Assembly: GCA_902773925.1 (NCBI GenBank)
Contig: CACYGI010000001.1
Span: 124,001 to 188,000, forward strand
DNA length: 64,000 bases
Source of the DNA: an uncultured Bacteroidia bacterium
GTDB lineage: Bacteria; Bacteroidota; Bacteroidia; Bacteroidales; UBA932
Direction of reading: 5' to 3'
Shown here: positions 22,301-42,512 of the stretch, one piece after another
How positions within the stretch are numbered: the first letter of the stretch is position 1
Layout: each line of letters begins with the position of its first letter
Program-made: the position numbers and the translations under genes
Notes under the pieces: generated by a model
The model's database searches: none
The model's input: the letters and a program-made list of their open reading frames with translations, nothing else
Told to the model about the DNA's origin: nothing

Positions 22301-22430
22301 TCCCGGCTGATGCCTGATTGGCTGTCTGGGCCGCTGCGCTCACACCCAGCAAGAGTATGAGTGTTAAAGCCATGCAGCTTTTCAAGATGAAAGGCATCAC
22401 TCCGAAAAAGGACTTCCTAATGTTTTTCAT
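19368..22430 (-). CDS. SusC/RagA-type TonB-linked outer-membrane transporter (pair 1)
   Basis: 1020 residues. A long basic start and signal peptide end at SAAAQ. Then a carboxypeptidase-regulatory-like domain (VKITGTVKDEMGEPFPFVDV through LAFSFLGYETKNVPVG), the conserved ETVVIAFGEQKKSAMSSAI segment, and the plug (IPGLVTMQASGQPGADES, YIRGAGTWNDAEPLYVIDG, EIESFSILKDAAATAVYGSKSANGVILVTTKRG). The barrel ends MGISFGVNLKF. First gene of the five-gene Sus-type operon, with a -7 promoter box 13 bases before the start. The adjacent DNA holds no AraC, hybrid two-component or ECF/anti-sigma regulator, so control must come from elsewhere. Confidence 0.96.
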   Translation of the reverse strand: MKNIRKSFFGVMPFILKSCMALTLILLLGVSAAAQTANQASAGKVKITGTVKDEMGEPFPFVDVVVVGTTLGTTTDAKGHYEITVDSKATLAFSFLGYETKNVPVGKRQVIDVNMTLEATMIEETVVIAFGEQKKSAMSSAISTVKADDIVKSPVSNISNAVAGRIPGLVTMQASGQPGADESTMYIRGAGTWNDAEPLYVIDGVESNQSQFLRLDPSEIESFSILKDAAATAVYGSKSANGVILVTTKRGQEGRPSVSFSSSLTLNTPTRYPQYLNSYESLLLYNEALMNDGQEPIYDEATLEHYRIQDDPYRYPDTDWYSIMMKKFSTQTNNSLSIRGGTKSVKYYVSGTYMYQEGQLKTTQGRIYDPKFGYQRYTFRSNVDVSLTKALTVSLDISGGMTDKSQPYENTDIFQYMNRIPSWVMPALNPDGSYAGTTDFPAANPLYLLNTRGSYRAKNNTIKSSLKVSYDFSQWIKGLTVSLRMAYDSNFGNYGQWTETQSTYQLISEAGRDDRYQAFLEPVFYSTSDGSISSTRKAYGEAIINWKGQIGNHNLSATAIGNLSDYRTGTSIPYKSVSFIGRFNYAYKDIYHVEANAAYRGSENFAPGRRFGLFPSISLGWNVHNESFLKNNQTITRLKVRLSYGLTGNDYANTRFIYKEGKWTTGSTDYSYFGQDAGNSNGYTTEPSIANPLATWEKAYQTNIGFDITLWKKLNFTMDRFLENRSDILMTPNSIPGVIGIGFSDMNIGKTKKNGWEVDLSFRDNITKDLSYNLRGNFTYVHNEVVFKDEAASMLEWQKEEGRAIGQQFGYMVLGFFKDQEDIDNCPVQQVGTTPIPGDLKYLDYNGDGVVNEYDKVPIGYSKIPEIVYGFSGGLDYKGFSLDIHFQGAAHSSVFISNYLMYEFYNRGRVQSIHQGRWTPETADTATYPALHIGGTSQNHNKNSFFLKDNPYLRLKNVELSYTFKTRKDAIIKGARVHVSGVNLVTWDKLKVVDPETPTGSTGAVYPQTMGISFGVNLKF

Positions 22431-26355: not shown

Positions 26356-26407
26356 AAATGGTTAATAATCTTATAATTAAATAATATTCCGCATTTTTTG
26401 CGGAACG

Positions 26408-26461: not shown

Positions 26462-28144
26462 TCAGCGCACAGAAAATGCACTTCTTGCATATATGGGCCG
26501 TCCGTCCGAAGTGATGCCTTCGACCACAACGGTATAATCCCCGGCCGCGCCGGGAAGCCGGACATCGATGGTCGCGGCCTCACCCGCAGGCAGCTCTATC
26601 ATCGGATGCCAGTACACCGTGCGACGGAAATCCGGCCAGAGCGAAGCATCCGGCAGCGAGGCGCCGGTATATGCAGCAGGATAGCTGACGCCGCGGAACT
26701 TGAGCACGCGCACCCGGTCCCCGAACTTCATCGAAGGCAGATTATGCTTGTAGGTGGTGAAATCCACTATCCCGTCATAATACTCGGGGCCTATCTTGAA
26801 CGACTCAGGGAAGATGCGGATCGTCTCGACCAGCTGCGGATCATAGTTGTAGATGAGGCTCTGGTCCGTGACCGGCACCCCGTCCAGCAGGAAGAGCGAC
26901 TCGCGGTTGCGGAACAGGACTTTGTTGCCGTGGCTGCCGCGACGCCCCACCTGGAGACGGCGGCCGCCTTCGCGCGCGCGAATCTCGAAGAGGTATTCGG
27001 TAAATACCTCCGCAAAGGTCGGAAAACGCCTGTAGTCGTCCAGACGGTAGAGGATGCTGCCCGAATCGTCGAAGAGCAGGTTGTTGCGCACCGGCATATA
27101 TTCATACAGCGTATCGGCGCTGAAATTGCGTTCGATCTGCACGGCAGCGGCCATTTCGGCAAGCGAAGAAGCTACCGTGGAGCAGAGCTGAAGCGGAAGC
27201 GGAGCCTCGACACCGGTCGCGGTAAACGGGCTGAAGAGCTCCAGATGCCCCTTGAGGGTCGAATCCGCCGCCACCAACTCGCATACCAGATCCTTGTCGC
27301 CGTAGATATTGTTGGTATAGAATGCGACCGAGCCGTCTTCGTCTATCATTGACATATATATGTCCGAGCGGTTGCCGGGCGCAGAGATTATGGCCGTCTT
27401 GCCAACCCATTCGCCACGGCGCGAAGGATCTGCGCCGACGATCTGCGCTCGAACGATCTCGCCTTCATAATCCGGTATTACATCAGGCTTGAAATGCCTG
27501 CCGCCTAGCGTTGCGGCGGAGGAAATGAAATCCGCAATGGTGGGATTGGCATTATGCGCGATACCTTCCTCGCGAAATACCGAGACGCAAACCGAAGCGG
27601 CGCCGGCCGAAGCAAGGCCGATCTGCACCGAAGAAGAAGGTGCGGCCTGCCGTGGCACCTCAACCTTGACCGGCGCGTCATCGACGTAGGGAGCCGGTAC
27701 GGACTTATATTCCTCAGGGGAAACAGCCACAGCCAGGCCTCTTTCGCGACTGAAAGGATTGAAAATGGATATGGTGCGCGCGGCGATGCCGTTATAATCG
27801 TAAGCGGTTTCGGAGCGGTTCTGCGACGTATAGGCCACAAGCCGGTAATTGCCAGTAGGCAGATTGGAAGGGATATTCATATATCCGCAGCCTCGCCCGT
27901 CAAGCAGTGCAATCTTCGCGCCCTGGAGCATCTTCGTGCCGTCGTGAAGCTCCAGATAGAGCACGCTGCTGACTGATGAAAGCTGCCCGCGGGTGACATC
28001 GAGGCAGAAGGCAGAGCACCAGATCCGGTCGCCGGTCACATAGACATCCTTGTCCGTAACCACGTAGGCGCGCTCGACGGTCCTGGCTCCCGAAACTTCT
28101 GCCAGGCATATCATACAAAGCAATATGGATAAGATACGTCTCAT
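26462..28144 (-). CDS. Secreted protein with macroglobulin-like N-terminus and TonB-plug-like C-terminus (cassette copy B)
   Basis: 560 residues from the ATG at 28144, which follows the upstream TAG by one base; an ATG five codons earlier lies inside that gene. Signal peptide to EVSGA. The N-terminus (ERAYVVTDKDVYVTGDRIWCSAFCLD, then LPTGNYRLVAYTS) has the MG2-type beta-sandwich pattern of macroglobulin-like secreted proteins. Around residues 400-480, ESLFLLDGVPVTDQSLIYNYDPQLVETIRIFP and YYDGIVDFTTYK mirror the plug of TonB receptors (LYVIDG...IESFSILK...GVILVTT), but no barrel follows. The C-terminus is a sandwich ending in GITSDGRPIYARSAFSV. Last gene of cassette B; its paralogue is 32909-34606. 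Function unknown. Confidence 0.7.
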   Translation of the reverse strand: MRRILSILLCMICLAEVSGARTVERAYVVTDKDVYVTGDRIWCSAFCLDVTRGQLSSVSSVLYLELHDGTKMLQGAKIALLDGRGCGYMNIPSNLPTGNYRLVAYTSQNRSETAYDYNGIAARTISIFNPFSRERGLAVAVSPEEYKSVPAPYVDDAPVKVEVPRQAAPSSSVQIGLASAGAASVCVSVFREEGIAHNANPTIADFISSAATLGGRHFKPDVIPDYEGEIVRAQIVGADPSRRGEWVGKTAIISAPGNRSDIYMSMIDEDGSVAFYTNNIYGDKDLVCELVAADSTLKGHLELFSPFTATGVEAPLPLQLCSTVASSLAEMAAAVQIERNFSADTLYEYMPVRNNLLFDDSGSILYRLDDYRRFPTFAEVFTEYLFEIRAREGGRRLQVGRRGSHGNKVLFRNRESLFLLDGVPVTDQSLIYNYDPQLVETIRIFPESFKIGPEYYDGIVDFTTYKHNLPSMKFGDRVRVLKFRGVSYPAAYTGASLPDASLWPDFRRTVYWHPMIELPAGEAATIDVRLPGAAGDYTVVVEGITSDGRPIYARSAFSVR

Positions 28145-28145
28145 A

Positions 28146-29474
28146 CTATTTGTGGTCATTGGGCCAGTAGGATGGTTTGTTCTTGTTGCCGCCCCTCATC
28201 TGACAGTCCACGCAGCGGCGCGGCATCCATTCATAATAGATAAACGGATCCGAGGTATCATCCCCCCTGTCAGTGGGGACATAAGGCCTGTAATCGAACC
28301 CGTAGTAATAACGGCGCCAATCGACCGGCATTGGTATTGATGATATATCGGTAACCGGGGTCTTGCGGTAGAATCCATCGCCGCTTACGAACCTGCGGCA
28401 GATGGATACCGTGGAGGCATTGACGTAGCCGAGCACTATTTCGGTCTCATCATCGAGACTGAAGATATTGCCGTAACATTCCGAAGGCTGCGGAGAGAAC
28501 AGGCCTCCGACATCGGTCGTATTGGATTTCATCGCTTTCCAATATCTCCAGGCATCAGCGGAGAGTGACTCCTGTATCATATCGACGCAGTAGAGATAGG
28601 CGATTTTCTGCGAAGTATTGTCCAGACCGTACAGTTCATACTGGCTCAGACGGTCCTCCGCAAGGCCTTCGCTGCTTGCAGTCATTATCGAACCCTGCGT
28701 CCCGGTATTCCAGCAGTAATAGGTATTCTCACCGTCCTGGTAGGCCAGGACTTCATTGGTGGAAGGATTATAATAATACTGCGCGTAAAGCTGGGCTGTG
28801 TATTCCCAGCTCTCGCGGGCAAACCAGCGATAATAACGCGATGAAGACTCCCCGGAAGTATTGATATTGAAATGCATCGTCTTCAGGTCTTCGTCAATCA
28901 TCGTAGTGACGCTGTCAAGATGCGAAGTCCGCTGCACCTCCAGCCACTCGGAAGCATAGCGGAGCGTATCTCTCTTCAATACTTCCCAATCCGCCAATAC
29001 TTCCCAATCCGCCCATTCGTAAGTGTAATACTCGATGCGCAGGCGGCAGCGTACGTCAGGATTCAGATCGCGGGTATCTATTGCGCGGCTGTAACTGTCC
29101 AGGGCCATTTCGGTCAAAACCCTGTCCAGCGAATCCCCGGGCCGGGGTACAACAGGCGGATTCAATATATTACCGGGAATTACATACCACGAAGGGTATA
29201 TGGTACCATCCTCAGCTTCGACATATACATCCCACAGACTCGATTCCATCCACCGGGTCCCGATGCTTGTTGTATAATAATCACCGTTACTCTCCTGTCC
29301 TATATTCATCGAACGGCCAATCCTGAAAACCGACTGCATCCCGGCAAAGATGTCACCCTCTACGACCAGGAAAGAATCCTGGATATCCGGCAGCTCAGGC
29401 TCGTAATCATATACACAGCCGAAGACCGTCAGGGAGGCGGCCAGAAGGGATAATATGATCTGCTTGGGCTTCAT
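28146..29474 (-). CDS. DUF4249 lipoprotein (cassette copy B)
   Basis: 442 residues; lipobox TVFGC with Cys20, then an acidic YDYEPELPD stretch. DUF4249 landmarks: LVVEGDI near residue 37, GLFSPQPSECYGNIFS, VLGYVNAST, and the C-terminal MPRRCVDCQMRGGNKNKPSYWPN with its CVDC pair. DUF4249 proteins usually accompany TonB-dependent receptors and may be surface ligand-binding partners. The start overlaps the receptor stop (TGATG), so translation is coupled. A perfect 18-base tandem repeat (28977-29012) duplicates six residues (ADWEVL twice). Paralogue: 34608-35843. Confidence 0.85.
   Translation of the reverse strand: MKPKQIILSLLAASLTVFGCVYDYEPELPDIQDSFLVVEGDIFAGMQSVFRIGRSMNIGQESNGDYYTTSIGTRWMESSLWDVYVEAEDGTIYPSWYVIPGNILNPPVVPRPGDSLDRVLTEMALDSYSRAIDTRDLNPDVRCRLRIEYYTYEWADWEVLADWEVLKRDTLRYASEWLEVQRTSHLDSVTTMIDEDLKTMHFNINTSGESSSRYYRWFARESWEYTAQLYAQYYYNPSTNEVLAYQDGENTYYCWNTGTQGSIMTASSEGLAEDRLSQYELYGLDNTSQKIAYLYCVDMIQESLSADAWRYWKAMKSNTTDVGGLFSPQPSECYGNIFSLDDETEIVLGYVNASTVSICRRFVSGDGFYRKTPVTDISSIPMPVDWRRYYYGFDYRPYVPTDRGDDTSDPFIYYEWMPRRCVDCQMRGGNKNKPSYWPNDHK
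28977..29012. repeat. 18-bp perfect tandem duplication inside the DUF4249 gene
   Basis: Two adjacent identical copies of an 18-base unit (28977-28994 and 28995-29012) that keep the frame and double a six-residue stretch rich in W and E. The other cassette copy lacks it. Confidence 0.9.
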
Positions 29475-32176
29475 CAGAAATCAAGATTGAGATTGATATA
29501 GGGTATCGGATATGCAAAGACGCTCATCATATGTCCCTTGATGACACCCCTGCTGTTGATATCGTAATATACCGAATAGGCATTGTGCCGTCCGGTGACA
29601 TTGTACACGCCCATCGTAAAGGAAAGGTGCGCCTTCTGGCGGAGATTGTGGCCCGGCTCCACGACCATCGCAAGATCCAGCCGGAAATAATCCGGAATAC
29701 GGTATGCGTTGCGGTCGGAATACACCAGGCGGGTACCTCCGGCATACTCGTAGGTGCCGATGGGCAGTGTTACGGGACGTCCCGTCGAATAATCCACGTT
29801 GGCCGAAAAACTGTACCGGTGCGTTATCTTGTAGTTCAGTACTGCCTTGAGCTCGTGCGGCTTGTCATACGAGGTCGAATACCACTCCCCACGGTTGATG
29901 TCCATCTTGCCGCGGTTGCCCATCTCGCGCTGCATCGAACGCGACCAGGTATATGATATCCAGCCGTTTAGCTTGCCGAGCGTGCGGCGCATCATCCATT
30001 CCACGCCGTAGGCGCGGCACTCGGTCGGGACAAGTTCATCAGCGAGATTCTCATTCATCGCAAGGCGGGCGCCGGGCAGATAATCCACGAAATTGTTGAC
30101 TCTCTTGTAATAGACCTCAACCGAGAAATCGATCGGGTTCTTGCCCGCCGTCAGGTACAGTCCGGTTGCGGCCTGCCAGCCATCCTGCGGGGCAAGACGG
30201 CCGTCGGCGAGCTTCCAAGTATCGGTAGGCGATATGTTGATGCTGTTGGAAATCTTGTGGATGTACTGGTGCATCGTATTGAATCCCGCCTTCCACGAGA
30301 AACGCGGCGTGAAGGACATCTTGGCCGAAAGCCGGACCTCGGGGGCGTGATAGAAGCTCTTGTCGCCGAGAGAGCCGTACAGCACATAGCGCAATCCGGC
30401 ATCGACAGAGAATTTCCGGGTGATCTTCCATTCGTCGCTGAGGTAGGCTGCGGCTTCCAGACCGCGTTCCAGTGCGAGCGAACGGTCCTCGACTATTGAC
30501 TCCTCGCCGAGCGGATGGCGCGCGCCGGGCTGCAGCTGGTAGAGCACGCCCGAGCCGCCATAGGTCAGCGTATGCGATTCGCTGAGCGGCGACTTGATGG
30601 TCACCTTGGCGAACGGCTGGCTAATCTGCGTCCGATAAGTATAGGCCGCGGCGGCATTGAACGTATCATCCACGCGGTAGCCGTATCGGTCATATCCGGC
30701 CGCGATTACCATCGACCGGCCGCCCTCGAAATTGCTGCGCCACTTGACCGAAAGGTTCAGGTTGTCGTAGCGGTAGGAGGTATCGTTGCTGAAGCCGAAT
30801 TTATCGCGGGAGATATAGCCGTATGCGTGCAGGGAATGGTTGCGACCGAACTTATGCGTAAGGCCGACGTTCAGGTCGTGGAACGATGCACTTCCGTCGG
30901 TGTACTGGATGTCCGGCGGAACGATGCCTTCGATCAGGTCGTTGGGCCGCAGGCGGAGCATCCAGTCGCTGTAAGTGGTGCGGGCACCGATGATGAATGT
31001 GGTATTCTCACTGCCTATCGGCCCCTCGAGGTGCAGGCGGCTGGTCAGCAGGCCCACGCCGAGCGAGCCGGAAATCTTCTTGCCGTTGCCTTCACGCGAC
31101 CGGACTTCGAGCACCGAGGATATGCGGCCGCCGTATTCGACGGGGATCGAACTCTTATACAGCTCGATATCGCTTACCACATCGGGATTGAATACCGACA
31201 TCAGGCCGAACATATGGCTCGGATTGTAGATGGTGCCGTTGTTGAACAGGATCAGGTTCTGGTCGGACGAGCCGCCGCGGACGTTGAAGCCGTTGGAAAC
31301 CTCGCCTACCGACTTGACGCCCGGCAGCGTGAGCAGCACTTTCAGCACATCGGCTTCGCCAAATACCGCCGGAACGTTCTTTATGGCAGAGATGCGGACG
31401 CTTTCGATGCCCATCTTGGAATTACGGTGACGGGCCATGCTCTCGGCCGTAACGACGGCGCCCGTGAGCGTCAGCACGCGTTCCTTCATCTGCACGTCGA
31501 AATTGCCGTCATCCCAGACTTTCAGCATATAGCGGCCTTCCTCCATCGACCAGCCGTCGTAGCAGAGGGTATTGTCTCCCACCGGCAGCGATATCTTGTA
31601 GAAACCCGAGGCGTCGGTCTGCGCATAAGCAGTACCGCGGTCGTCATATACCGAAATGCCGGCCAGCGGCTCGCCGGTCGCCGCGTCGCGGACATATCCG
31701 CGGACGGAGGCCTTGCCCGAAGTGCGGGCTCCCCTTTCGCCTATCTCGTATATCTTGTTGGCAAATGTCGCCTGCAGTTCGTTTTCGCCGAAAATGTCGG
31801 ACGTGGCTTCGGCGGCCGCAGTCTCCTGCCGGTTTTCGAAAAATCCGACCGGAAGCGAAGTTACCAGCGTGCGGCCGTAAAGCACGATGTAGAGGTCCTT
31901 ATACTGGCTGATGCGATAGCCGTTTTCGCGCAGCTGGCGGAACGCCTCTTCCATAAACGGCTCTTTCTCCCCTTCATAGACCGTATAGAGGCGGCGGTCT
32001 TCGCCCTCGTGCACCCAATATACGGGCACGCCGAAATGGCCGCGCATATAGGTCAGGAGCGAATCTATCTCCACCTTTGAGACGCCGGGGCACACCTCGG
32101 TCTTCTTGCGCGGGGGCGCGGCAAATGCCGAGACCGTCACCAGAAGCAGGAAGAGCACTGTCAGAATCCGCCTCAT
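29474..32176 (-). CDS. TonB-dependent outer-membrane receptor (cassette copy B)
   Basis: 900 residues. Signal peptide (LLVTVSAFA), then an STN-like N-terminal domain (KVEIDSLLTYMRGHFGVPVYWV to DLYIVLYGRTLV, residues about 30-110), a carboxypeptidase-regulatory-like domain (ASVRGYVRDAATGEPLAGISVYD), and a plug with SIRAIKNVP-like VRISAIKNVPAVFGEADVLK, TLPGVKSVGEVSNGFNVRGGSSDQNLILF and GGRISSVLEVRSREG. The barrel ends YPIPYINLNLDF. It is a FecA-like rather than a SusC-like receptor. An STN domain normally talks to an anti-sigma factor, but none is encoded nearby. Start overlaps the preceding stop (ATGA). Paralogue: 35840-38491. Confidence 0.92.
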   Translation of the reverse strand: MRRILTVLFLLLVTVSAFAAPPRKKTEVCPGVSKVEIDSLLTYMRGHFGVPVYWVHEGEDRRLYTVYEGEKEPFMEEAFRQLRENGYRISQYKDLYIVLYGRTLVTSLPVGFFENRQETAAAEATSDIFGENELQATFANKIYEIGERGARTSGKASVRGYVRDAATGEPLAGISVYDDRGTAYAQTDASGFYKISLPVGDNTLCYDGWSMEEGRYMLKVWDDGNFDVQMKERVLTLTGAVVTAESMARHRNSKMGIESVRISAIKNVPAVFGEADVLKVLLTLPGVKSVGEVSNGFNVRGGSSDQNLILFNNGTIYNPSHMFGLMSVFNPDVVSDIELYKSSIPVEYGGRISSVLEVRSREGNGKKISGSLGVGLLTSRLHLEGPIGSENTTFIIGARTTYSDWMLRLRPNDLIEGIVPPDIQYTDGSASFHDLNVGLTHKFGRNHSLHAYGYISRDKFGFSNDTSYRYDNLNLSVKWRSNFEGGRSMVIAAGYDRYGYRVDDTFNAAAAYTYRTQISQPFAKVTIKSPLSESHTLTYGGSGVLYQLQPGARHPLGEESIVEDRSLALERGLEAAAYLSDEWKITRKFSVDAGLRYVLYGSLGDKSFYHAPEVRLSAKMSFTPRFSWKAGFNTMHQYIHKISNSINISPTDTWKLADGRLAPQDGWQAATGLYLTAGKNPIDFSVEVYYKRVNNFVDYLPGARLAMNENLADELVPTECRAYGVEWMMRRTLGKLNGWISYTWSRSMQREMGNRGKMDINRGEWYSTSYDKPHELKAVLNYKITHRYSFSANVDYSTGRPVTLPIGTYEYAGGTRLVYSDRNAYRIPDYFRLDLAMVVEPGHNLRQKAHLSFTMGVYNVTGRHNAYSVYYDINSRGVIKGHMMSVFAYPIPYINLNLDF

Positions 32177-32889
32177 CTGCCCTCCTCCACATATTGCAGC
32201 ACGCAGAGCGCATACTGCCCGAGATCGAAATACCGGCCAGTTTCAAGCGCCGAGACGTGCCTGCGGATATCCTTGCGGCGGTCTTTGTAGAACTTGAGGA
32301 TATCCCCGCGGCGGCGCAACTGCTTTACCTCACCCGATGCGGAAACATAGTAATACCGCACCTCCCGGATGAAAATATTCGCAATGCCGTAATGATACTG
32401 GCCATCATATCCGGCCTCGCTGCGGCGGCGTCCTTCAGGGTCCTCCCGGAGCGTCTTGGTCACCTGCATCAGCAGCTTCGCGCGACCGTCGAAAAGCACT
32501 TCGCAGAAGCCTTCGGGTATCGCCTGGCCGTACGTGCGGCGCGGATAGATGAACTTGTGCTGCCCGATAAGCAGATACTCCACCTCATCGCGGTTGAGCA
32601 GCATCGCCTGATGCTGGGACTGGGGACGGACGAGCACCTGATTGGCGTAAGCGTCGATATTGAGATTCACACCTGCGTAATCCCGGCCGTTGTAGCCGAT
32701 CACACCGCTGCGGAAATCCGGGGACTCCCAGTAAGGCGTGCCGTTGTACAGGAAATCATATCCCGTATCGATGCGGCCGCGCCACAGAAGAGAGGCCTCT
32801 CCTGCTTCCTGCATATACAGGCCGTAATCGTCCTGCGCCTGCGCCACAAGCGGAATCAACGACAACAATATCAGCAGAAGCCTTCGCAT
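32173..32889 (-). CDS. Small secreted protein heading cassette copy B
   Basis: 238 residues, signal peptide MRRLLLILLSLIPLVAQAQ. The mature part carries EASLLWRGRI, DFLYNGTPYWESPDFRSGVIGYNGRDYAGV, LNRDEVEYLLIG, PEGFCEVLFDGRAKLL and a C-terminal basic helix (KQLRRRGDILKFYKDRRKDIRRHV). Every block has a counterpart in the 38488-39213 gene, so the two are paralogues. I do not recognise a named family. It precedes the TonB receptor with a 4-base ATGA overlap in both cassettes, which suggests a periplasmic or outer-membrane accessory to that receptor. It has its own promoter box 5 bases upstream. Confidence 0.7.
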   Translation of the reverse strand: MRRLLLILLSLIPLVAQAQDDYGLYMQEAGEASLLWRGRIDTGYDFLYNGTPYWESPDFRSGVIGYNGRDYAGVNLNIDAYANQVLVRPQSQHQAMLLNRDEVEYLLIGQHKFIYPRRTYGQAIPEGFCEVLFDGRAKLLMQVTKTLREDPEGRRRSEAGYDGQYHYGIANIFIREVRYYYVSASGEVKQLRRRGDILKFYKDRRKDIRRHVSALETGRYFDLGQYALCVLQYVEEGR

Positions 32890-32894
32890 AGGTG

Positions 32895-32902
32895 CAAATA
32901 TA
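32895..32902 (-). promoter_or_regulatory. Internal -7 box between the two cassettes
   Basis: TATATTTG on the minus strand ends 5 bases before the ATG at 32889 and lies wholly in the 19-base gap between the two cassettes. A TTG at 32926-32928 is 23 bases upstream, slightly too far for a good -33. It would let cassette B be transcribed without cassette A. Confidence 0.5.
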
Positions 32903-32908
32903 AAAAAA

Positions 32909-34606
32909 CTATTGCATTACGATGTCAATCTGCCGGCGGCAATATACGGGCCGTCCGTCCGAAGTAATACCTTCGACCACGATGGAATATCTTCCGGGGC
33001 GCAGAGGAGCGTGGAACTCCAGATGGGTGCCGCGGCCGGGAGCCATCTCCACCAGCGGATGCCAGAGCGCCGTCTGCCGGTAATCCGGATACAGCCCGGA
33101 AACTTCCAGCCCGGTACTGGCTGCAGGATAGAGCACTCCCTGGAAATCAATCACGCGCACATTGCCGCTGAAACGCATCGAGGGCAGGTTGCGCTTGTAT
33201 GTCACGAAATTGACGATGCCGTCAAACTGCTTCGGCCCCACCACGTGGCGGAACGGATAGATATTGATGGATTCGACCAGCAGCGGGTCATAATTGTATA
33301 TCTTGTCGTGATCCGGGACCGGCACGCCGTCAAGCATTATGAGCGAACTGCCTTCGGAGAACCGCGAATCGATATCATTTTCCCGTAGGCGCACCTGGAT
33401 ATCGCGGCGGCCGCCTAGCATACGGGCGCGGATTTCGGGTATGAACTCCACGAACACCTCCCGCATCAGCGGGAAACGGGTATAATCATCCAGACGGTAG
33501 GTGATGCGGCCGTCTTCGTTGAAAAGAAGATTGTCGCGCACCGGAAGCCATTCGTAAAGCGTATCGGAAGCAAACCGGCTTGCGACCTGCATCGCGGCCG
33601 AACGCGACTGGAGGTCGGCGGCCAGCGAGGGATGCAGCACGAGCGGAGCGGGAGCGGCGATGGCAGGAGAAACGAATGGCGACGCTATCTCCAGATGGCA
33701 GGCGTAAGTCGAGTCGATATCCTCGATCTCGCTTATGAGCTCCTTGCGGCCGAGAATATTGCCTGTATAGAATACTGCCTGCCCCAGGCTGTCCAGGGTG
33801 GCATAATAGACGTCCGATTTATTGCCCGGGGCGGCAATAAATGCCGTGTGCCCCGCCAGCTGCGCTACCATTTCCGGCGCAATGCCCTTAACCCGGGCGC
33901 GGATCACCTCCCCGTCATAATCCGGCATAAACGATGCGGCGGCAGTGGCAGAAGCCGCGGTACCTGCAAGAGCATCGAGAAACGCCGCTATGGTGGGATT
34001 GTCGCGATGCGGAATGGCATCCTCGCGGAAAACCGAGACAGAAAGCGACCCACCTTCGGCAAGCATCAGCTCAAGCGGAACAATTGCGCCTGCGGCAGCC
34101 TGCGAAGGATACTCCACCTGAAGTGAAGACGAAGAAGGCGAAGGTGCGACGGCCGCCTGCAGAAGGTCTTCGACGACACTCACGCCGCCATTGACACGCT
34201 CCCGCGTGCGGGTATTGTACACCGAAATGGTCCTGGGGCAGATGCCATTCCAGTCGTAGCCCTCCTCGTTCTTATTGAGCGAAGTATAGGCTATAAGGGA
34301 GTAACTGCCCGTAGGCAGATTCTTTGGCAGGGAGATAAACCCTGCTCCGCGCCCGTCAATCAGGCCGATCTTCGCGGTAAGGGCAAGCCCTTCGGCGCTG
34401 TGCAGCTCGACGTAGGCCACGCTGCTCACGGTGCTGGGCCGCATCGTCGAGGCATCCAGACAGAAAGCCGAGCAGCCCATCTCTTCGCCGGAGAGATAGA
34501 TATCCCGATCCGTGACGATATATGTACGCTCTGTCACGGGCCCAGCGGCGTGCGAATGCGCCATTGCCAGCAGAAGTAATGCTATTATCGTAATCACCCG
34601 TCGCAT
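32909..34606 (-). CDS. Secreted protein with macroglobulin-like N-terminus and TonB-plug-like C-terminus (cassette copy A)
   Basis: 565 residues, signal peptide to AMAHSHAA. It parallels the 26462-28144 protein throughout: TERTYIVTDRDIYLSGEEMGCSAFCLD, LPTGSYSLIAYTSLN, YDWNGICPRTISVYN, FREDAIPHRDNPTIAAFLDA, and the plug-like segment SLIMLDGVPVPDHDKIYNYDPLLVESINIYPF with FDGIVNFVTYKRNLPSM, ending GITSDGRPVYCRRQIDI. No barrel or enzyme motif follows. It begins 1 base after the stop of the DUF4249 gene (TGA-T-ATG), as in the other copy. The plug-like part may bind a receptor or a partner barrel; this is inference. Confidence 0.7.
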   Translation of the reverse strand: MRRVITIIALLLLAMAHSHAAGPVTERTYIVTDRDIYLSGEEMGCSAFCLDASTMRPSTVSSVAYVELHSAEGLALTAKIGLIDGRGAGFISLPKNLPTGSYSLIAYTSLNKNEEGYDWNGICPRTISVYNTRTRERVNGGVSVVEDLLQAAVAPSPSSSSLQVEYPSQAAAGAIVPLELMLAEGGSLSVSVFREDAIPHRDNPTIAAFLDALAGTAASATAAASFMPDYDGEVIRARVKGIAPEMVAQLAGHTAFIAAPGNKSDVYYATLDSLGQAVFYTGNILGRKELISEIEDIDSTYACHLEIASPFVSPAIAAPAPLVLHPSLAADLQSRSAAMQVASRFASDTLYEWLPVRDNLLFNEDGRITYRLDDYTRFPLMREVFVEFIPEIRARMLGGRRDIQVRLRENDIDSRFSEGSSLIMLDGVPVPDHDKIYNYDPLLVESINIYPFRHVVGPKQFDGIVNFVTYKRNLPSMRFSGNVRVIDFQGVLYPAASTGLEVSGLYPDYRQTALWHPLVEMAPGRGTHLEFHAPLRPGRYSIVVEGITSDGRPVYCRRQIDIVMQ

Positions 34607-34607
34607 A

Positions 34608-35843
34608 TCAAATCTCTATTGTGGGCCATTCGGCCGGTTTGCGCTTCGTCCCGCCCTTGGTGCGGCAATCCACGCAACGGTGCGGCAGCCAGGTATATTC
34701 GGCCACTCCCGAGCCGTCATCCGGCTCTTCGCTCGGGTCAGGCTCCTCTCCGCCATCTGGATCTGGAGGGAAATACATCCTGTAGGGCCACCAGTCCAGA
34801 TCATAATAATACTTGCGCCACTCATTTCGGCGGACAAGCTTTGGCACTTCGGGGAATCCGTCCGGAGCCACATAGAACTGCGTGGCGTGATTGGGGATCA
34901 TAATCTGCGCCGAGGAAACCTGCGAAGCGCTGATATAGCCTATGACATACTCCGTGGTATCCTGCAGGTTGTGGATATTGCCCCGGATCTCAGAAGGCTG
35001 GGGAGAGAACAGGCCGCCGACCTCCGAAGAGTTGCGCGCTATATTGTTCCAGTAGCGCCAGGCATCTTCGGAAATGGACTCCTGGATCAAGCAGATATTG
35101 TAATAGTAAGAGATGCGTTCATCACGGCAGTTGATGCTCATCACGGGGTAGCCGATCAGGCGGTCCTCCTCCATCTGCAGAGTCGATGCGGTCATTATAT
35201 CAGGAGCGCTGCGGCGCATCCAGCAATAGTAGTAATTGGCGCCGTCGGCGAAATACGTCACCGAATCCGCAGCGGGATCAAAATACACCGTAGCCTGGAA
35301 ATCGGCCTTGTACTCATATACCTCGCGGCCTATCCAGCGATAATACCCGCCGTCGGCCTCTCCGTGAGCCGAGACGCATATATCCATCCACTCCCTGTCT
35401 TCGGCGATCTGATACGAGAGGCTGTCAACCTGCGAGGTCCGGCGGATATCCTGCCAGTCGCAGGCATAGGTCGTCCCCTCGATCACAACCACAAGACGGC
35501 ACTGCTGCGAGACGTCAAGTTTCCTTGTGTCTATCAGGTAATATGCGTGCTCCGCAAAATCGCCGGTACCGGCCTCGACCCTGACTGCATTTTTGCGCTG
35601 GCCATTGCGGCTCTCTACATAGACCGTCGCATCTATCAGCGGCGGCAGATCGGTCGTAGCAAGTGCCTGGGAGCCGGTCACCAGCACCGTGGTCCAGTCT
35701 CCGGCGAGGATATCGCCTTCGATGGAAATGATTCCTCCGCCGCCCTCAACCTTCGCATCGAACGGATAGACGCACGAGAAGGCCAAGGCCGCGGCGAAAG
35801 CCGTTGCCACAATCATACGCAGGCTATGAACGAGACTTCTCAT
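34608..35843 (-). CDS. DUF4249 lipoprotein (cassette copy A)
   Basis: 411 residues; lipobox LAFSC with Cys24, then VYPFDAKVEGGGGIISIEGDI. DUF4249 landmarks are GLFSPQPSEIRGNIHN, VIGYISASQVS, and the C-terminal LPHRCVDCRTKGGTKRKPAEWP with the CVDC pair. Aromatic patches (YYRWIGREVYEYKADF; YYYCWMRRSAPDIMTAS) match those of copy B, which also has YYCW and IMTASS. An acidic insertion (DPDGGEEPDPSEEPDDG) precedes the C-terminal motif. The start overlaps the TonB receptor stop by 4 bases. Confidence 0.85.
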   Translation of the reverse strand: MRSLVHSLRMIVATAFAAALAFSCVYPFDAKVEGGGGIISIEGDILAGDWTTVLVTGSQALATTDLPPLIDATVYVESRNGQRKNAVRVEAGTGDFAEHAYYLIDTRKLDVSQQCRLVVVIEGTTYACDWQDIRRTSQVDSLSYQIAEDREWMDICVSAHGEADGGYYRWIGREVYEYKADFQATVYFDPAADSVTYFADGANYYYCWMRRSAPDIMTASTLQMEEDRLIGYPVMSINCRDERISYYYNICLIQESISEDAWRYWNNIARNSSEVGGLFSPQPSEIRGNIHNLQDTTEYVIGYISASQVSSAQIMIPNHATQFYVAPDGFPEVPKLVRRNEWRKYYYDLDWWPYRMYFPPDPDGGEEPDPSEEPDDGSGVAEYTWLPHRCVDCRTKGGTKRKPAEWPTIEI

Positions 35844-38491
35844 CGCAGCTTCAGGTTAAGGTTGATATAGGGAATGGGCGTTGCGAAAACGCTCATCATA
35901 TAGCTTTGGACAGTGTCGCCCTCCGTCCGGTAGAATACCGAATAGGCGTTGCGGCGGCCGGTGACATTGTACACGCCGAAAGTCACCGACATATGCGCGA
36001 ACTGCTTCAGGTTGTGGCCCGGCTCGATGATCATCGCCAGATCGAGTCGGAAATAATCCGGGATGCGGTAGCTGTTGCGGTCCGAGTAGAGCAGGCGGTA
36101 CGATCCGCCGTAATAGTATTTGCCTACAGGAATGGTAACCGGCCGGCCGGTCGAATAGTCAAGGTTGGCAGAAACGCTGTAGCGGTGCGTAAACTTATAG
36201 TTGGCCACGAGCTTGAAATCGTGCGGCTTGTCGTATGAAGCGTTGTACCAGCGACCGCCGTTGATAGTCTCCACGCCGCGATCCTCCATCTCGCGCTGCA
36301 TCGCCCGGCTGTAGGTATAGGAGACCCAGCCGTTGAGCTGGCCGAGATTCTTGCGGGCCATCAGCTCGATGCCGTACGAACGTCCGTAGGTCGGCACCAG
36401 TTCGGCGGCAAGATTGTCATTCATTTCGAGCACTGCTCCACTCCTGAAATCCACGAAATCCCGCACGTGCTTGTAGTATATCTCGGCCGAAAGGTCCACC
36501 TGCCCGCCGGCAACGGTCGAATACCATCCGGCGGCTGCCTGCCACCCGCTCTGCGGCCGGACGGAAGCGTCGCTGAGCTTCCAGGTATCGTTGGGCGAAA
36601 TGTTGATGCTGTTGGAAATCTTGTGGATATACTGGTGCATCGTGTTGAATCCGGCCTTGATGGTGGTCGTCTCGCCGAGGGAATATTTGCCGCTGAGGCG
36701 GAATTCCGGCGCGTGATACATCTTCCGTCCGCCTGTAAGCGAGATATAGTTGGAGTAGCGTATGCCAGCCTCAAGCGAGAGGGCGTCCGTCGCTTTCCAT
36801 TCGTCGCTGAAGTAAGCCGCGCTCTCCCAGGCACGCTCGCGCGTAAGGAAACGGGGCGCCACGAGCGATGAATCACCTAAGGGCGTGCAGGCTCCGGGCT
36901 GCAGGTCATAACGCACCGTCCCAGCGCCGTAGGTGATGGTGTGGCGGTCGCTCAGCAGGGTCTTGAACGTCGTGCGGGCGAAGAACTGGCGGATGCCCGA
37001 GGCCAGCGTGAAGGCCGAAGCGGCATTGCCCTTTTCCTCCGTCTGATAATCATAATCGTCGTAACCTGCGACCGTGACTGCGGAAGTGCGGTCAGAGAAC
37101 TGAGCGCGCCATTTGAGCGACACGTTCAGGTCCGCATAGCGATAGGTCGTATCCCCGCTGAAGGCAAAACGGTCGTACGAATAATAAGCATACGCGTGAA
37201 GCGAATGATTGCGTCCGATGCGCTGGCTTATTCCGGCATTGATATCGTGGAAATGGGCGTTACCGTCACTGTATGCGCTGTTTTTGGGCAGCAGCGAAAG
37301 CATCCAGTCGCTGTAGGTCGTGCGGGCTCCCAGGATGAAAGTGGTATTTTCGCTGCCAAGCGGGCCTTCGAGATGGGCCCGGCTGGTCAGCAGACCCAGG
37401 CCGAGCGAGCCCGTCACCTTCTTGCTGTTGCCGTCGCGGCTGCGGACCTCCAGCACCGAAGATATGCGGCCGCCGTATTCGACGGGCACCGAGCTCTTGT
37501 AAAGCTCAACGTCGCTGATGACATCTGAGTTGAATGCCGAGAGCAGGCCGAACATATGCGTGGGATTGTAGATGGTGCCGTTGTTGAACAGGATGAGGTT
37601 CTGGTCGGTGGATCCGCCGCGCACGTTGAAGCCGCTGGAAATCTCGCCCACCGACTTGACGCCGGGCAGGGTCATCACCACTTTGAGAGCATCGCTTTCG
37701 CCAAATGTGACCGGCACGTTCTTGATGGCCGAGATACGGACCGTCTCGATACCCATTCGCGTCGAACGGTGCTGACGCATACTTTCGGCCGTAACGACGG
37801 CGCCAGCCAGGGCCACGACCTGCTCCTTCATCATCACATCTATCGCACCGTCGTCATAGACGCGCAGGTGATACTGCTTGTCTTCCATCGAAAAGCCGCT
37901 GAACTTAAGGATATTGTCACCGATCGGCAGAATTATCTTGTATGCGCCGAAGGCATCTGTCTGCGCGAAGGCGCCCTTCTCGTCATAGACCGCGACGCCG
38001 GCCAAAGCCTCGCCGGTCGAAGCATCCCGCACGATACCGCGCACCGTTGCCTTGCCGCTGCGGCGGGCGGTGGGCTCGCCTATCTCGTATATCTTGTTTT
38101 CAAATCCCGTAACGACCGTCTCTTCCTCCATTGCGATCTTTTCGGCGGGAGCCGCCTGCGGCGCAAAATAGCCTGCCGGCAGATCCGTGACTATATCCTG
38201 ACCACGGTAGATAAAGTAGCGGCCGTCCATCATATTGACCGAATAACGGTGCTCGCGAAGCTGCGCAAATGCCTCGTCTATAAATGCCTGACCCTCGCTA
38301 CGGATCGTATAGGAGGCCTTGTCGGTCGTGTCCCTGACGGCATAAACCTCCAGATGCAGCGAATCGCGCAGATACTGCACCACCTCCATCGCGTCGGCCT
38401 TGGAGACGCCGCGAAGACTCTGTGCGGCTGCGGCCGGAGAGAGCAGTGCCAGAATGAAGGCGCAGAGGATTATATGGCGCAGACGACTCAT
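35840..38491 (-). CDS. TonB-dependent outer-membrane receptor (cassette copy A)
   Basis: 883 residues. Signal peptide (LLSPAAAAQ), STN-like domain (KADAMEVVQYLRDSLHLEVYAV to DGRYFIYRGQDIV), carboxypeptidase-regulatory-like domain (ATVRGIVRDASTGEALAGVAVYDEKG), then plug VRISAIKNVPVTFGESDALK, TLPGVKSVGEISSGFNVRGGSTDQNLILFNNG and YGGRISSVLEVRSRDG. The barrel ends in TPIPYINLNLKLR. Same architecture as the 29474-32176 protein, with long stretches nearly identical in DNA. It is the second gene of cassette A, overlapping the small secreted protein gene by ATGA. Ligand unknown. Confidence 0.92.
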   Translation of the reverse strand: MSRLRHIILCAFILALLSPAAAAQSLRGVSKADAMEVVQYLRDSLHLEVYAVRDTTDKASYTIRSEGQAFIDEAFAQLREHRYSVNMMDGRYFIYRGQDIVTDLPAGYFAPQAAPAEKIAMEEETVVTGFENKIYEIGEPTARRSGKATVRGIVRDASTGEALAGVAVYDEKGAFAQTDAFGAYKIILPIGDNILKFSGFSMEDKQYHLRVYDDGAIDVMMKEQVVALAGAVVTAESMRQHRSTRMGIETVRISAIKNVPVTFGESDALKVVMTLPGVKSVGEISSGFNVRGGSTDQNLILFNNGTIYNPTHMFGLLSAFNSDVISDVELYKSSVPVEYGGRISSVLEVRSRDGNSKKVTGSLGLGLLTSRAHLEGPLGSENTTFILGARTTYSDWMLSLLPKNSAYSDGNAHFHDINAGISQRIGRNHSLHAYAYYSYDRFAFSGDTTYRYADLNVSLKWRAQFSDRTSAVTVAGYDDYDYQTEEKGNAASAFTLASGIRQFFARTTFKTLLSDRHTITYGAGTVRYDLQPGACTPLGDSSLVAPRFLTRERAWESAAYFSDEWKATDALSLEAGIRYSNYISLTGGRKMYHAPEFRLSGKYSLGETTTIKAGFNTMHQYIHKISNSINISPNDTWKLSDASVRPQSGWQAAAGWYSTVAGGQVDLSAEIYYKHVRDFVDFRSGAVLEMNDNLAAELVPTYGRSYGIELMARKNLGQLNGWVSYTYSRAMQREMEDRGVETINGGRWYNASYDKPHDFKLVANYKFTHRYSVSANLDYSTGRPVTIPVGKYYYGGSYRLLYSDRNSYRIPDYFRLDLAMIIEPGHNLKQFAHMSVTFGVYNVTGRRNAYSVFYRTEGDTVQSYMMSVFATPIPYINLNLKLR

Positions 38492-39213
38492 TCTCCGTAT
38501 TCTACATAACGCATTACGATGAGTATGAACTCCTCGAGGCCGATGCTGTATTCGGTCTCTTCGGCGCGGATGATCTTCTTCAGGGCGCTGCGGTGCTCCC
38601 TGTAGTGCTTCAGCAGGTCGCTTCGGCGGCGGATCTGGGTTATGGCGCCATCCTGCCCCTGATAATAGAAGGTGACTATCGGCAGATAGACCTCATATAC
38701 GTTGTTGAGGACAGCCGTGCCCTTCTCTCCGGTATCCAGCAGACGCTCGTTGGTGACAGTCTCAAGACGCTTGACGATATGCTTGAGGATGCGCGCCTTC
38801 CCCTCGAAAATCACCTCGTAATAACCCTCGGGCAGCACCTCGGGCGCAAGGAATGCGGCGTTGATGAACTGCCTGCCGTCCATCTTCAGCTGTTCGACAT
38901 AGTCGCGGTTGAGCATAACCTGCGCGCCCTTCTGCGGCTCTATGACCAGCACCTGCTGGCGCGCGGCGTCGATATTGATGGCATCGCACCAGTAATCCTT
39001 GTGATTGTAACGCACGCAGCCTGCGTAATAATCCGGCGTATCCCAGTAATATGTGCCGTTGAACTGAAACTTGTACGCGAGCGGCTTGCGGCCCCGGTAG
39101 AGCAGCGAAGAAGCTTGCGCCGAATCCCGGTAGCGCATATAATCGGCATTCTGGGCCTGCATTTCCGTCAGGCAGGCCGCCACCATCGCGAATATCAGCA
39201 GGAGTCTTCTCAT
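38488..39213 (-). CDS. Small secreted protein heading cassette copy A
   Basis: 241 residues from the ATG at 39213 (MRRLLLIFAMVAACLTEMQA, a signal peptide). A longer frame from 39582 lies in an alternate frame of the MATE gene and is rejected. Blocks shared with 32173-32889: QASSLLYRGRK, FQFNGTYYWDTPDYYAGCVRYNHKDYW, MLNRDYVEQLKMDGRQFI, LPEGYYEVIFEGKARILKHI, and RRRSDLLKHYREHRSALKKII. No named family recognised. It starts 2 bases after the MATE stop, so the cassette may be read from the rsgA promoter. Confidence 0.7.
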   Translation of the reverse strand: MRRLLLIFAMVAACLTEMQAQNADYMRYRDSAQASSLLYRGRKPLAYKFQFNGTYYWDTPDYYAGCVRYNHKDYWCDAINIDAARQQVLVIEPQKGAQVMLNRDYVEQLKMDGRQFINAAFLAPEVLPEGYYEVIFEGKARILKHIVKRLETVTNERLLDTGEKGTAVLNNVYEVYLPIVTFYYQGQDGAITQIRRRSDLLKHYREHRSALKKIIRAEETEYSIGLEEFILIVMRYVEYGE

Positions 39214-39215: not shown

Positions 39216-40532
39216 TTACGGTACGCGGCTTAGAATTATCTTCCGGTAAACGACCGTCTGATAGATCGAGCGGAATACCAGATGTCCGAAATAACCTATG
39301 TAGATGGACTGCACCCCGAAACGGCCGGCCGTCGCCCAGTATAGCAGCAGGAATACCACCGCCGAACCGATCGTGCAGTTGCGAAGTGCGCGCGAAGCCG
39401 TCGCGCCGATATAGATCCCGTCCCAGGTAAATGCGATGCAGCTCATAACCGGCATCAGCAGCAGCCAGAAGAGGAACGGCCCGCAGGCCTCGATGACTTC
39501 CGCATTGTCCGTGATGATACCTATCATCCAGCGGGGCAGGACGGCATAGAGGGCGGTCGAGACAATGGCTATGGCCATGCACCAGACAAAGTTCCAGCGT
39601 ATGGTTGCCTTAAGGTTATCCTTTTCCTGCGCTCCGATATAGCGGCCGGTAAGGGCCTCGCCCGCGTAGGCAAATCCGTCAACAAAGTACGAATAGAGCA
39701 GCAGCAGCTTCATCATCACCGAACTGACGGCAAGCTGGGTATCTCCGAAGCGGGCCGCAAGCGCGGTAAATCCGGTATAGACCACCAGCAGTGATATGGA
39801 GCGGATGAAAAGGTCTATATTGATCGAGAAGAATGAACGTATCTTGGCCCACCGGGCGCTCTGACGTATGCTGGCAAGCCGCAGGATGGCCCGGTAGCGG
39901 GCCGTTATCAGGACCGAAGCCAGGATCAGGCCGCTCCACTGGGCGATGAGCGTTCCGGCAGCCACGCCGTTGATGCCCATCGGCGTATGGAAGGCCAGCA
40001 GCCAGCTGGCTATCATATTGACCACGTTGACCCAGATATCCACCACCATCGCATAGACGGTATTCTGCATCCCGATAAACCAGCCCTTGAATACGAACAG
40101 CGAAAGAGTGGCGGGAACCGCCCAGATGCGGATAAAGAAGTAATCCTTGGCAATGGCCGCGACCTCTGGCGTACACTCGATGAGCATAAATGCCACCTTG
40201 ATGTAGAGCCACTGTATCAGCAGGCAGATAAAGGCCACCGCCATTGCCGTCATTATACCCTGCATAAAGGTCTCGGCGGCGCATTTCCAGTCCTTGCGGC
40301 CAAATGCCTGGGCAGTTATGCCGCCCGTTCCCACGCGCAGGAAGCCCATATTCCAGTAGAGCAGGTCGAAGAGCATCGAGCCGATTGCGATGCCGCCGAT
40401 GCTCACCGCATCTCCCAGATGGCCGGAAATCGCCAGATCGACGATACCCACAAGCGGGACCGTGATGTTGGCGAGAATGCTCGGGCCTGCAAGACCCAGG
40501 ATCTGACGGTTTATGGCGCGTGCGCTGCTCAT
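39216..40532 (-). CDS. MATE family efflux transporter (DinF-like)
   Basis: 438 residues with 12 hydrophobic segments. MATE landmarks: ILGLAGPSILANITVPLVGIVDLAISGHLGD in TM1-2, FLRVGTGGITAQAFG, then FIGMQNTVYAMVVDIWVNVVNM and GINGVAAGTLIAQW, repeated in the second half (YFVDGFAYAGEALTGRYIGA). It exports cationic compounds or metabolites using a Na+ or H+ gradient across the inner membrane; the substrate is unknown. It overlaps rsgA by 4 bases (ATGA) and precedes the TonB cassette by 2 bases. Confidence 0.93.
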   Translation of the reverse strand: MSSARAINRQILGLAGPSILANITVPLVGIVDLAISGHLGDAVSIGGIAIGSMLFDLLYWNMGFLRVGTGGITAQAFGRKDWKCAAETFMQGIMTAMAVAFICLLIQWLYIKVAFMLIECTPEVAAIAKDYFFIRIWAVPATLSLFVFKGWFIGMQNTVYAMVVDIWVNVVNMIASWLLAFHTPMGINGVAAGTLIAQWSGLILASVLITARYRAILRLASIRQSARWAKIRSFFSINIDLFIRSISLLVVYTGFTALAARFGDTQLAVSSVMMKLLLLYSYFVDGFAYAGEALTGRYIGAQEKDNLKATIRWNFVWCMAIAIVSTALYAVLPRWMIGIITDNAEVIEACGPFLFWLLLMPVMSCIAFTWDGIYIGATASRALRNCTIGSAVVFLLLYWATAGRFGVQSIYIGYFGHLVFRSIYQTVVYRKIILSRVP

Positions 40533-41470
40533 CGGTACTTGGTCTCCTCCTCGAGCATTCCGAGGTACGAATTGTACCGCTCAGCGGATATTTCGCCCGA
40601 ATCCACCGCCTCCTTGACGGCGCATCCAGGCTCGTGTGTATGTGTACAGGGCTTGAAGCGGCAGCGGTCCATAACCCGGAGCATCTCCGGGAAATACGTG
40701 CTCAACTCCTCGGGTTCGATGTCCACCAGGCCGAAGCCGCGAATGCCCGGAGTGTCTATCAGGAATCCGCCTCCCGAGAGAGGGTGCATCTCGTAGAATG
40801 TTGTGGTATGCCTGCCCTGGCGGTTGGAAATGGATATCTCGCCGGTACGTACCGTGAGAGTGGGATCAAGAGCCGATATGAGGGAACTCTTGCCGACTCC
40901 CGAGACGCCCGAAAACAGCGAAACCTTGTCGCGGCACATATCCCGGATCGCATCGATGCCTTCGCCAGTAAGGGCTGAAACGGTCAGCACCTGATATCCT
41001 GCGCGGGAGTAGATATCCTCCCAGTAGCGACATTCGGCCCGCTGGTACTCATCGTAGATGTCAGTCTTGTTGATGACTATCACCGGATGCACCTGATATG
41101 CCTCGCAGGTGATCAGGAACCGGTCCACAAAGGCCGGTTTGATCTCAGGCAGGGCCACCGTGATAACCAGGAACACCCGGTCGAGATTGGCGGCGATGAC
41201 GTGCGACTGGCGCGAGAGATTGACCGAACGGCGGACGATGCAATTGGTGCGGGGCAGGATCCGTTCGATGGTCCCCATCGGCTCGGGAGCGTCCCAGTCG
41301 ATGACATATTCGACACGGTCCCCGACTGCGACGGGATTGGTGGCCTGCGAGGCATCGAGCCGTACGCGTCCCTTTATCACCGCGGGAATCATCTCCCAGC
41401 GTGGAAGTTCCGACAGCAGGTAATGGCTTCCCGTATGCTTGACTACAGTCGCTGTTCCGTGTTGTTTCAT
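40529..41470 (-). CDS. rsgA: Ribosome small-subunit-dependent GTPase A
   Basis: 313 residues from the ATG at 41470 (MKQHGTATVVKHTGSHYLL); the frame from 41563 crosses the promoter and is rejected. An OB fold (KGRVRL, VAVGDRVEYV) precedes a circularly permuted GTPase: NKTDIYD (G4), LTVSALTGEGI (G5), SGVSGVGKSSLISAL (G1), HTTTFYE (G2), DTPGIRGFG (G3). The C-terminal zinc site is CRFKPCTHTHEPGCAVK. It matures the 30S subunit by releasing assembly factors. Promoter box 7 bases upstream; divergent from the prenyl synthase gene. Confidence 0.97.
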   Translation of the reverse strand: MKQHGTATVVKHTGSHYLLSELPRWEMIPAVIKGRVRLDASQATNPVAVGDRVEYVIDWDAPEPMGTIERILPRTNCIVRRSVNLSRQSHVIAANLDRVFLVITVALPEIKPAFVDRFLITCEAYQVHPVIVINKTDIYDEYQRAECRYWEDIYSRAGYQVLTVSALTGEGIDAIRDMCRDKVSLFSGVSGVGKSSLISALDPTLTVRTGEISISNRQGRHTTTFYEMHPLSGGGFLIDTPGIRGFGLVDIEPEELSTYFPEMLRVMDRCRFKPCTHTHEPGCAVKEAVDSGEISAERYNSYLGMLEEETKYR

Positions 41471-41477
41471 ATCCCGG

Positions 41478-41513
41478 CAAAGATAATAATTTCCACAAAA
41501 TAGATTATCTTTG
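41478..41513. promoter_or_regulatory. Divergent -7 boxes, rsgA and prenyl synthase
   Basis: TATCTTTG on the minus strand (41478-41485), 7 bases before rsgA, and TATCTTTG on the plus strand (41506-41513), 21 bases before the ATG at 41535. The same octamer serves both directions in a 64-base gap. Confidence 0.65.
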
Positions 41514-41534
41514 CGCAGATAAAGTGCAGTAACA

Positions 41535-42512
41535 ATGTATTCCCAGGATATTATCGACGGCATCGTGGAGAAAGCCCTCCGGAGCCAGTCGTTCGACCGC
41601 GAACCGCAGAACCTCTACCGCCCGGTAGGCTATATGCTGGGGCTTGGCGGCAAGCATCTGCGTCCGCGCCTCTGTGTGACCACGTACAACCTGTTCAACG
41701 ACCGCATCGATGACCGTATCATCTTCCCGGCGCTGGCGCTCGAGACGTTCCACCAGTTTACGCTCATCCACGACGATATTATGGACAACTCGCCCACCCG
41801 TCGCGGCCAGCCCACGGTATATGCGCTCTATGGCACCAACAATGCCATCCTCAGCGGCGATGCGATGAACATCCTGGCCTACCAGTATCTGGCAGGAGCG
41901 CCCTCGCATCTTGTCGGAGACGCCTTGAAGCTCTTCAACGAAATCTCTCTCAAGGTCTGCGAAGGACAGCAGCTGGATATGGATTTCGAGGACCAGGCCG
42001 TGATTACGATGGATGAATATATGGAGATGATCGCCCTCAAGACAGGCGTGCTGATCTCCGGAGCCGTCAAGATGGGCGCGCTGCTGGCTGAGATCCCCTG
42101 CGACACTGTCGATGCACTCGCCCGGTACGGCATGCAGGCCGGACTGGGATTCCAGATCGCAGATGACTATCTGGACACTTTCGGCGACGAAAAAATCTTC
42201 GGCAAGCCCATCGGAGGCGATATCGTCAACAACAAGAAGACCTGGCTGCTGGTAGAATGCCAGCGCCGCGCATCTGAATCAGAAAAGAAGAAGCTTGCAG
42301 ACCTTCTGAAGCTGGATGAAAGCCACCGCGAGGAGAAGATCGAAGGAGTCCGCAATCTCTACATCAGCCTCGGTGTCCGCGAAGGCGCCGACAAGGCCAT
42401 TATGGCTTGTTACGCCAAGGCTCTGGAGGCGCTTGACGAAGCCCGTCTGAGCCCGGAGGGCCGCGAACGTATGGTCATCCTTGCGGATCAAATGTTGCAC
42501 CGTGAAAAATAG
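41535..42512 (+). CDS. Polyprenyl diphosphate synthase
   Basis: 325 residues. Trans-isoprenyl synthase motifs: GLGGKHLRPRL (IPP binding), the first aspartate-rich motif LIHDDIMDNSPTRRG (D80, D81, D84), TGVLISGAV, and the second motif FQIADDYLDTFGD with GGDIVNNKKTWL. It condenses IPP onto an allylic diphosphate. Product length is uncertain; a phenylalanine five residues before the first Asp is of the kind that limits chain length, favouring FPP or GGPP over octaprenyl. It overlaps the U32 gene by 11 bases. Confidence 0.93.
   Translation: MYSQDIIDGIVEKALRSQSFDREPQNLYRPVGYMLGLGGKHLRPRLCVTTYNLFNDRIDDRIIFPALALETFHQFTLIHDDIMDNSPTRRGQPTVYALYGTNNAILSGDAMNILAYQYLAGAPSHLVGDALKLFNEISLKVCEGQQLDMDFEDQAVITMDEYMEMIALKTGVLISGAVKMGALLAEIPCDTVDALARYGMQAGLGFQIADDYLDTFGDEKIFGKPIGGDIVNNKKTWLLVECQRRASESEKKKLADLLKLDESHREEKIEGVRNLYISLGVREGADKAIMACYAKALEALDEARLSPEGRERMVILADQMLHREK

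Follow-up and report, generated by a model that had tools for sequence, protein, structure and literature searches.

The cassette pair in the window

The window, the whole stretch of 64,000 nucleotides that was analysed (G000:C1:124001-188000), comes from a genome of 1.72 Mb in 10 contigs with an estimated completeness of 98%. It carries eight tightly coupled minus-strand ORFs, arranged head to tail and each open over the span given below, which form two successive sets of four genes (copies A and B) encoding a small secreted protein (SML), a TonB-dependent receptor (TBD), a DUF4249 lipoprotein (LID) and a macroglobulin/plug protein (MGP). The features are as follows.

38488-39213, minus strand: SML_A, small secreted protein of 241 aa with a type I signal peptide and no Pfam family; first gene of copy A
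35840-38491, minus strand: TBD_A, TonB-dependent receptor of 883 aa with an STN-like N-terminal region, CarbopepD_reg_2, Plug and barrel
34608-35843, minus strand: LID_A, DUF4249 lipoprotein of 411 aa with a C-terminal CxxC extension
34665-34676, minus strand: CVDC motif, residues 390-393 of LID_A, within the extension that is absent from plain DUF4249 proteins
32909-34606, minus strand: MGP_A, 565 aa, with MG2, CarboxypepD_reg-like and plug-like regions and no barrel; last gene of copy A
33161-33373, minus strand: plug-like segment of MGP_A, about residues 412-482
32173-32889, minus strand: SML_B, small secreted protein of 238 aa; first gene of copy B
29474-32176, minus strand: TBD_B, TonB-dependent receptor of 900 aa
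28146-29474, minus strand: LID_B, DUF4249 lipoprotein of 442 aa with CVDC at residues 421-424
26462-28144, minus strand: MGP_B, 560 aa, with MG2 and plug-like regions; the ORF may start at 28159
26386-26406, minus strand: terminator-like hairpin after copy B and before rpsL, by pattern match only

The original prediction of two collinear four-gene copies, matched one-to-one, is borne out by all eight ORFs and by BLASTP between copies A and B, with identities of 38% for SML (E 2e-45), 60% for TBD (E 0), 33% for LID (E 8e-75) and 47% for MGP (E 0). The junction types, read from the sequence, are conserved between the copies as had been proposed. SML and TBD overlap by ATGA in both copies, and TBD and LID overlap by ATGA in copy A and by one base (TGATG) in copy B. 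MGP_B has an alternative start, its longest ORF beginning at 28159 and overlapping LID_B by 14 bases. A single T separates the LID stop codon from the MGP ATG in copy A, and the same holds in copy B if MGP_B starts at 28144; 19 bases lie between the MGP_A stop and the SML_B start. The TonB cassette run is thus real, and its description is slightly amended by a MATE gene (39216-40532) that lies 2 bases upstream and is adjoined by rsgA (40529-41563), and by the hairpin on the downstream side, beyond which rpsL-rpsG-fusA follow.

Two other regions of the window were recorded. At 12411-22430 there are SusC/SusD-type genes, with a SusD gene at 12411-14309, a receptor at 14317-17523, and a 614-aa ORF and second receptor (17517-22430) alongside; an outer-membrane pair may have been duplicated in tandem here as well. 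The segment 43735-47318 encodes a pair of neighbouring C10 (streptopain-type) peptidases, both of which have an I69 inhibitor prodomain, and a fimbrillin-like gene (47329-48582) adjoins them.

Domain composition of the four proteins

Both window receptors pass the Pfam cut-offs for Plug (PF07715) and beta-barrel (PF00593), and by Pfam TBD carries CarbopepD_reg_2-like, Plug and barrel domains, with a variable N-terminal region across the family in which STN is matched in 3 and FecR_C in 2 of 25 receptors. Against the SusC/RagA family TIGR04056 the window receptors reach 34 and 25.6 bits and fail the curated cut-off of 368. When the TBD profile was compared with solved structures, the best sequence match was XusA (9GBC), and SusC/RagA importers also matched. 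A scan of viral contigs returned one distant receptor and no cassette.

The window lipoproteins match DUF4249 (PF14054) with 94 and 86.7 bits at a cut-off of 28.5; this is the sole match of the receptor partner, and SusD/RagB (PF07980) is not matched. In both, a lipobox precedes the cysteine, and both genes overlap adjacent receptor genes. The lids of cassettes are mostly 350-450 aa long, and a C-terminal CxxC extension is present in 82 of 90 of them; the eight exceptions are precisely the lids of four loci with a variant gene order. None of the 14 plain DUF4249 proteins, which measure 263-312 aa, has the extension. On sequence grounds, the cassette LID is a distinct long type of DUF4249 protein. 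Plain DUF4249 genes also have a receptor as neighbour in 13 of 14 loci inspected, and a second DUF4249 match in the window genome (C4:269374-270321; locus L210, G000:C4:262000-278000) adjoins another TonB receptor with neither SML nor MGP. In nine cassettes LID is multiplied (two copies in seven, four in one, five in one). The loci L166, L075, L218 and L219 exemplify lids multiplied up to four or five per receptor and long CxxC lids that stand alone, the latter at L218 and L219, where no receptor is adjacent.

For MGP, the original description as macroglobulin plus plug-like agrees with three observations. MG2 is matched in the window proteins with E values of 3e-5 and 3e-7, under the curated Pfam cut-off, and in 28 of 31 family members; the C-terminal half is collinear with the receptor CarbopepD and plug domains (hhalign E 2.4e-6, 89%); and the full length is homologous to stand-alone MG2-Plug proteins (100%, E 5e-84), whose defining combination of MG2, CarbopepD-like and plug regions in one barrel-less chain is found in MGP. 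Because it aligns over its whole length with this group, MGP is regarded as a barrel-less member of it. The Pfam Plug domain was detected in 9 of 15 stand-alone proteins (E<=0.001) vs 2 of 31 cassette MGPs (E<=0.01). Unlike in the protease-trapping alpha-2-macroglobulin, no thioester or alpha-macroglobulin domain beyond MG2 was found by Pfam in the MGP members scanned, apart from one weak MG4 match. A stricter TonB-box regular expression was matched by 34 of 77 receptors and 1 of 81 MGPs; since a looser one did not separate the two cleanly, the absence of a TonB box in MGP is suggestive only. The stand-alone proteins are about 800-900 aa long, often occur as adjacent pairs (L181-L188, L190-L199) and, unlike the cassette MGP, are mostly not beside TBD, LID or SML. 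The MGP profile has matches in 161 of 248 genomes, and the stand-alone MG2-Plug proteins are widespread in the phylum and apparently undescribed; a literature search found no paper on MG2-plug proteins.

SML was assigned to no family by profile search of Pfam, NCBIfam and solved structures, and profile comparison gave no link to TBD, LID or MGP. A lipobox-like motif is present in only 3 of 79 SML and 1 of 84 MGP members. AlphaFold runs with four sequences yielded no confident fold for MGP_A (mean pLDDT 35) or SML_B (mean pLDDT 38). Both families have solo relatives far from any receptor, indicating that each can act without TBD; inspection of the solo SML genes gave varied surroundings with no common functional hint, and some systems are without SML (L189, L200). 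An accessory subunit of the BAM complex was considered as the identity of SML or MGP, and PMC12611786 gave no sign of it. The only clue to the role of SML is its coupling to TBD.

Conservation and duplication of the unit

SML and MGP searches in samples at the order, family and phylum level supplied the loci, which were annotated with profiles made for this analysis. The order SML-TBD-LID-MGP on one strand was found in 54 single canonical runs and several tandem ones, distributed over 20 GTDB families within the class of the window, counts that depend on greedy ORF calling and on the samples of GTDB species. Since the loci were selected by SML or MGP matches, the independent result is that TBD and LID lie between the two. 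Of the 26 best SML matches in the phylum sample, 23 have a listed MGP match no more than 12 kb away, with 0.3 expected by chance, and two of the remaining three (L216, L217) were full cassettes when read, giving 25 of 26 beside MGP; the weaker SML matches are solo paralogs, of which 1 of 58 is beside MGP. The four-gene order is therefore far beyond chance, and the expectation that small secreted and plug-like proteins neighbour TonB/DUF4249 genes elsewhere was confirmed, for proteins of the cassette type, almost without exception and in fixed order. The fixed set of four genes is a feature of gut-type Bacteroidales and their relatives. Among the matches listed for the phylum sample, cassettes are confined to the class of the window (21 of about 62 class genomes, 0 elsewhere). 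ATGA couples SML to TBD at 32 of 67 junctions. A variant order, TBD-LID-MGP-SML, was observed at four loci (L068, L070, L075 and L077), the receptors of which form one clade.

Clustering of the other genes within 6 kb of cassettes gave none that is common across families beyond incidental housekeeping genes, namely the rpsL operon in the family of the window and rpoD/pnp in family f124. As no other neighbour is shared and the sites vary, the unit consists of four genes found in different places. The same clustering gave no recurrent sigma/anti-sigma pair and no enzyme or inner-membrane transporter that would name a substrate, and a riboswitch search found none at the cassette. One cassette of genome G207 (L141) directly follows an rRNA operon (LSU and 5S). 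The four-gene unit was not found described in the literature search, a weak sign of novelty as most subscription papers and preprints lay outside its coverage.

The tandem pair of the window is present at the same site in a congeneric MAG (L003). The receptor tree unites the A and B copies from the two genomes in one clade inside the genus (SH-aLRT 98); next to it stand the cassettes of G212 and G230, which are present in single copy, also at this rpsL site. The SML, LID and MGP trees are compatible with this, with a support of 82 for MGP and LID and SML unresolved at that fork. Judged from these gene trees, the pair is the product of one whole-cassette duplication inside the genus of the window, as the original prediction of a tandem duplication held. 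An independent duplication is indicated by genomes G208, G227 and G245: each has a tandem pair whose copies group apart from those of the window, again next to rpsL in G208 and G245, the two whose contigs cover that site. Further tandem cassettes were observed in f124 (L171, L172). For the two duplications with good sampling, all four families show A-type genes grouping with one another, so the copies do not exchange parts.

The two copies in the genome are old and diverged. Between the paralogs, dN is 0.70 for SML, 0.64 for LID, 0.52 for MGP and 0.35 for TBD, with synonymous sites near saturation. The copies had been called diversifying, and the strong divergence of the paralogs, most of all LID and SML, supports this, but the orthologs of the two congeneric MAGs are under purifying selection, with dN/dS of 0.07-0.14 for the genes without apparent recombination. 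Between the window and L003, dS is 0.085 for LID_B (28146-29474) and 0.21 for SML_B (32173-32889), and 0.5-0.65 for TBD_B and MGP_B, which suggests recent recombination at LID_B and SML_B; for this reason the dN/dS of these two genes is not readable as selection.

A putative four-part importer and its alternatives

The cassette is predicted, with slightly better than even confidence, to encode a single lidded TonB-dependent importer with MGP and SML as extra subunits. TBD would be the TonB-powered outer-membrane channel, and LID, lipidated and by analogy surface-exposed, would cap it and capture substrate in the pedal-bin manner of SusCD, BtuBG and XusAB. SusCD has the same working mode of a lid on a TonB-dependent barrel. 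For BtuBG and XusAB, a lipoprotein lid is described that captures ligand and shuts on a TonB-driven barrel (PMC10404256, PMC13142918), and DUF4249 beside a TonB transporter is proposed as its partner or lid in PMC11003636 (citing Price et al. 2023). MGP and SML would be dedicated extra subunits, either periplasmic or secreted. MGP is homologous to the receptor's own N-terminal periplasmic domain and plug, which suggests that it docks there, most likely at the periplasmic face or N-terminal domain, where it may receive or gate cargo or possibly serve as a second plug, with SML working together with it. Duplication of the whole cassette would have produced a second importer, in which the greatest divergence, that of LID (and SML), is consistent with a changed ligand. 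Counting against this reading are the solo relatives of MGP and SML, the systems without SML, and the outcome that no riboswitch, enzyme or inner-membrane transporter accompanies the cassette. A more tentative version, to which we give limited credence, takes MGP as a detached second plug, a macroglobulin arm and plug with neither barrel nor evident TonB box, acting with the receptor plug or barrel alongside a dedicated SML, with lids multiplied or swapped on one receptor.

Two of the four subunits are secreted proteins that have neither a barrel nor an enzyme domain, the recurrent neighbours of the cassette include no catabolic genes, no inner-membrane transporter and no sigma/anti-sigma pair, and the cassette lies near housekeeping genes (the rpsL operon; rpoD/pnp) and not in substrate loci. 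These observations would also fit an envelope-assembly or secretion complex for a surface layer or protein export, in which barrel, lid, MGP and SML act together and TonB serves for gating. This reading is rather unlikely, as the receptor has the complete Plug and barrel of an importer, its solved sequence homologs are the importers XusA and SusC/RagA, and DUF4249 partners elsewhere are proposed as lids.

A somewhat weaker candidate is loose co-transcription, by which TBD and LID would form a normal lidded importer and SML and MGP would share the operon with a separate envelope role. Receptor-DUF4249 pairs without SML and MGP are indeed common at the plain loci, one of them (L210) in the same genome, and solo relatives of both proteins exist; however, exactly these four genes keep the same order across the families while their surroundings change, the cassette LID is the distinct long type, and duplications copy the four genes together. 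That the STN-like region makes TBD a signal-transducing receptor, with MGP and SML as a periplasmic relay, is very improbable: the few STN and FecR_C matches noted above would favour it, but most members have no significant STN match, and the cassette has no FecR anti-sigma/ECF sigma pair as a recurrent neighbour.

Taken as a four-part importer, the cassette resembles the TonB transporter and DUF4249 pair BT2172-BT2173 (PMC11003636, citing Price, Deutschbauer and Arkin 2023), in which a receptor and an adjacent DUF4249 lipoprotein form a conserved operon. It differs from the plain DUF4249 pairs of this analysis in its longer lids, with CxxC in the canonical order, and in the fixed presence of SML and MGP. 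With the SusCD/RagAB importers of glycans and peptides it shares a CarbopepD, Plug and barrel receptor and a lipoprotein partner, but here the partner is DUF4249 and not SusD, the receptor falls under the SusC/RagA cut-off, and SML and MGP are added. BtuBG and XusAB likewise combine a TonB transporter with a lipoprotein lid; by the descriptions in the consulted parts of PMC10404256 and PMC13142918 their lid families differ, and those parts mention no MG2-plug or SML subunit.

The fixed four-gene set and its two copies side by side in this genome point to an undescribed variant of nutrient-uptake machine. Bacteroidota depend on lidded TonB importers, of which few kinds have known parts and cargo, and a class-wide, four-part importer type would here be defined by its genes. 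Two protein families to which no role had been assigned, SML and MGP, gain a partner and a place, and the long lid with a CxxC tail, SML and the barrel-less MG2-plug protein are markers by which the cassette can be spotted. The link between a plug protein that has no barrel and a receptor with a plug of its own also raises a direct mechanistic question, namely how cargo passes through such channels.
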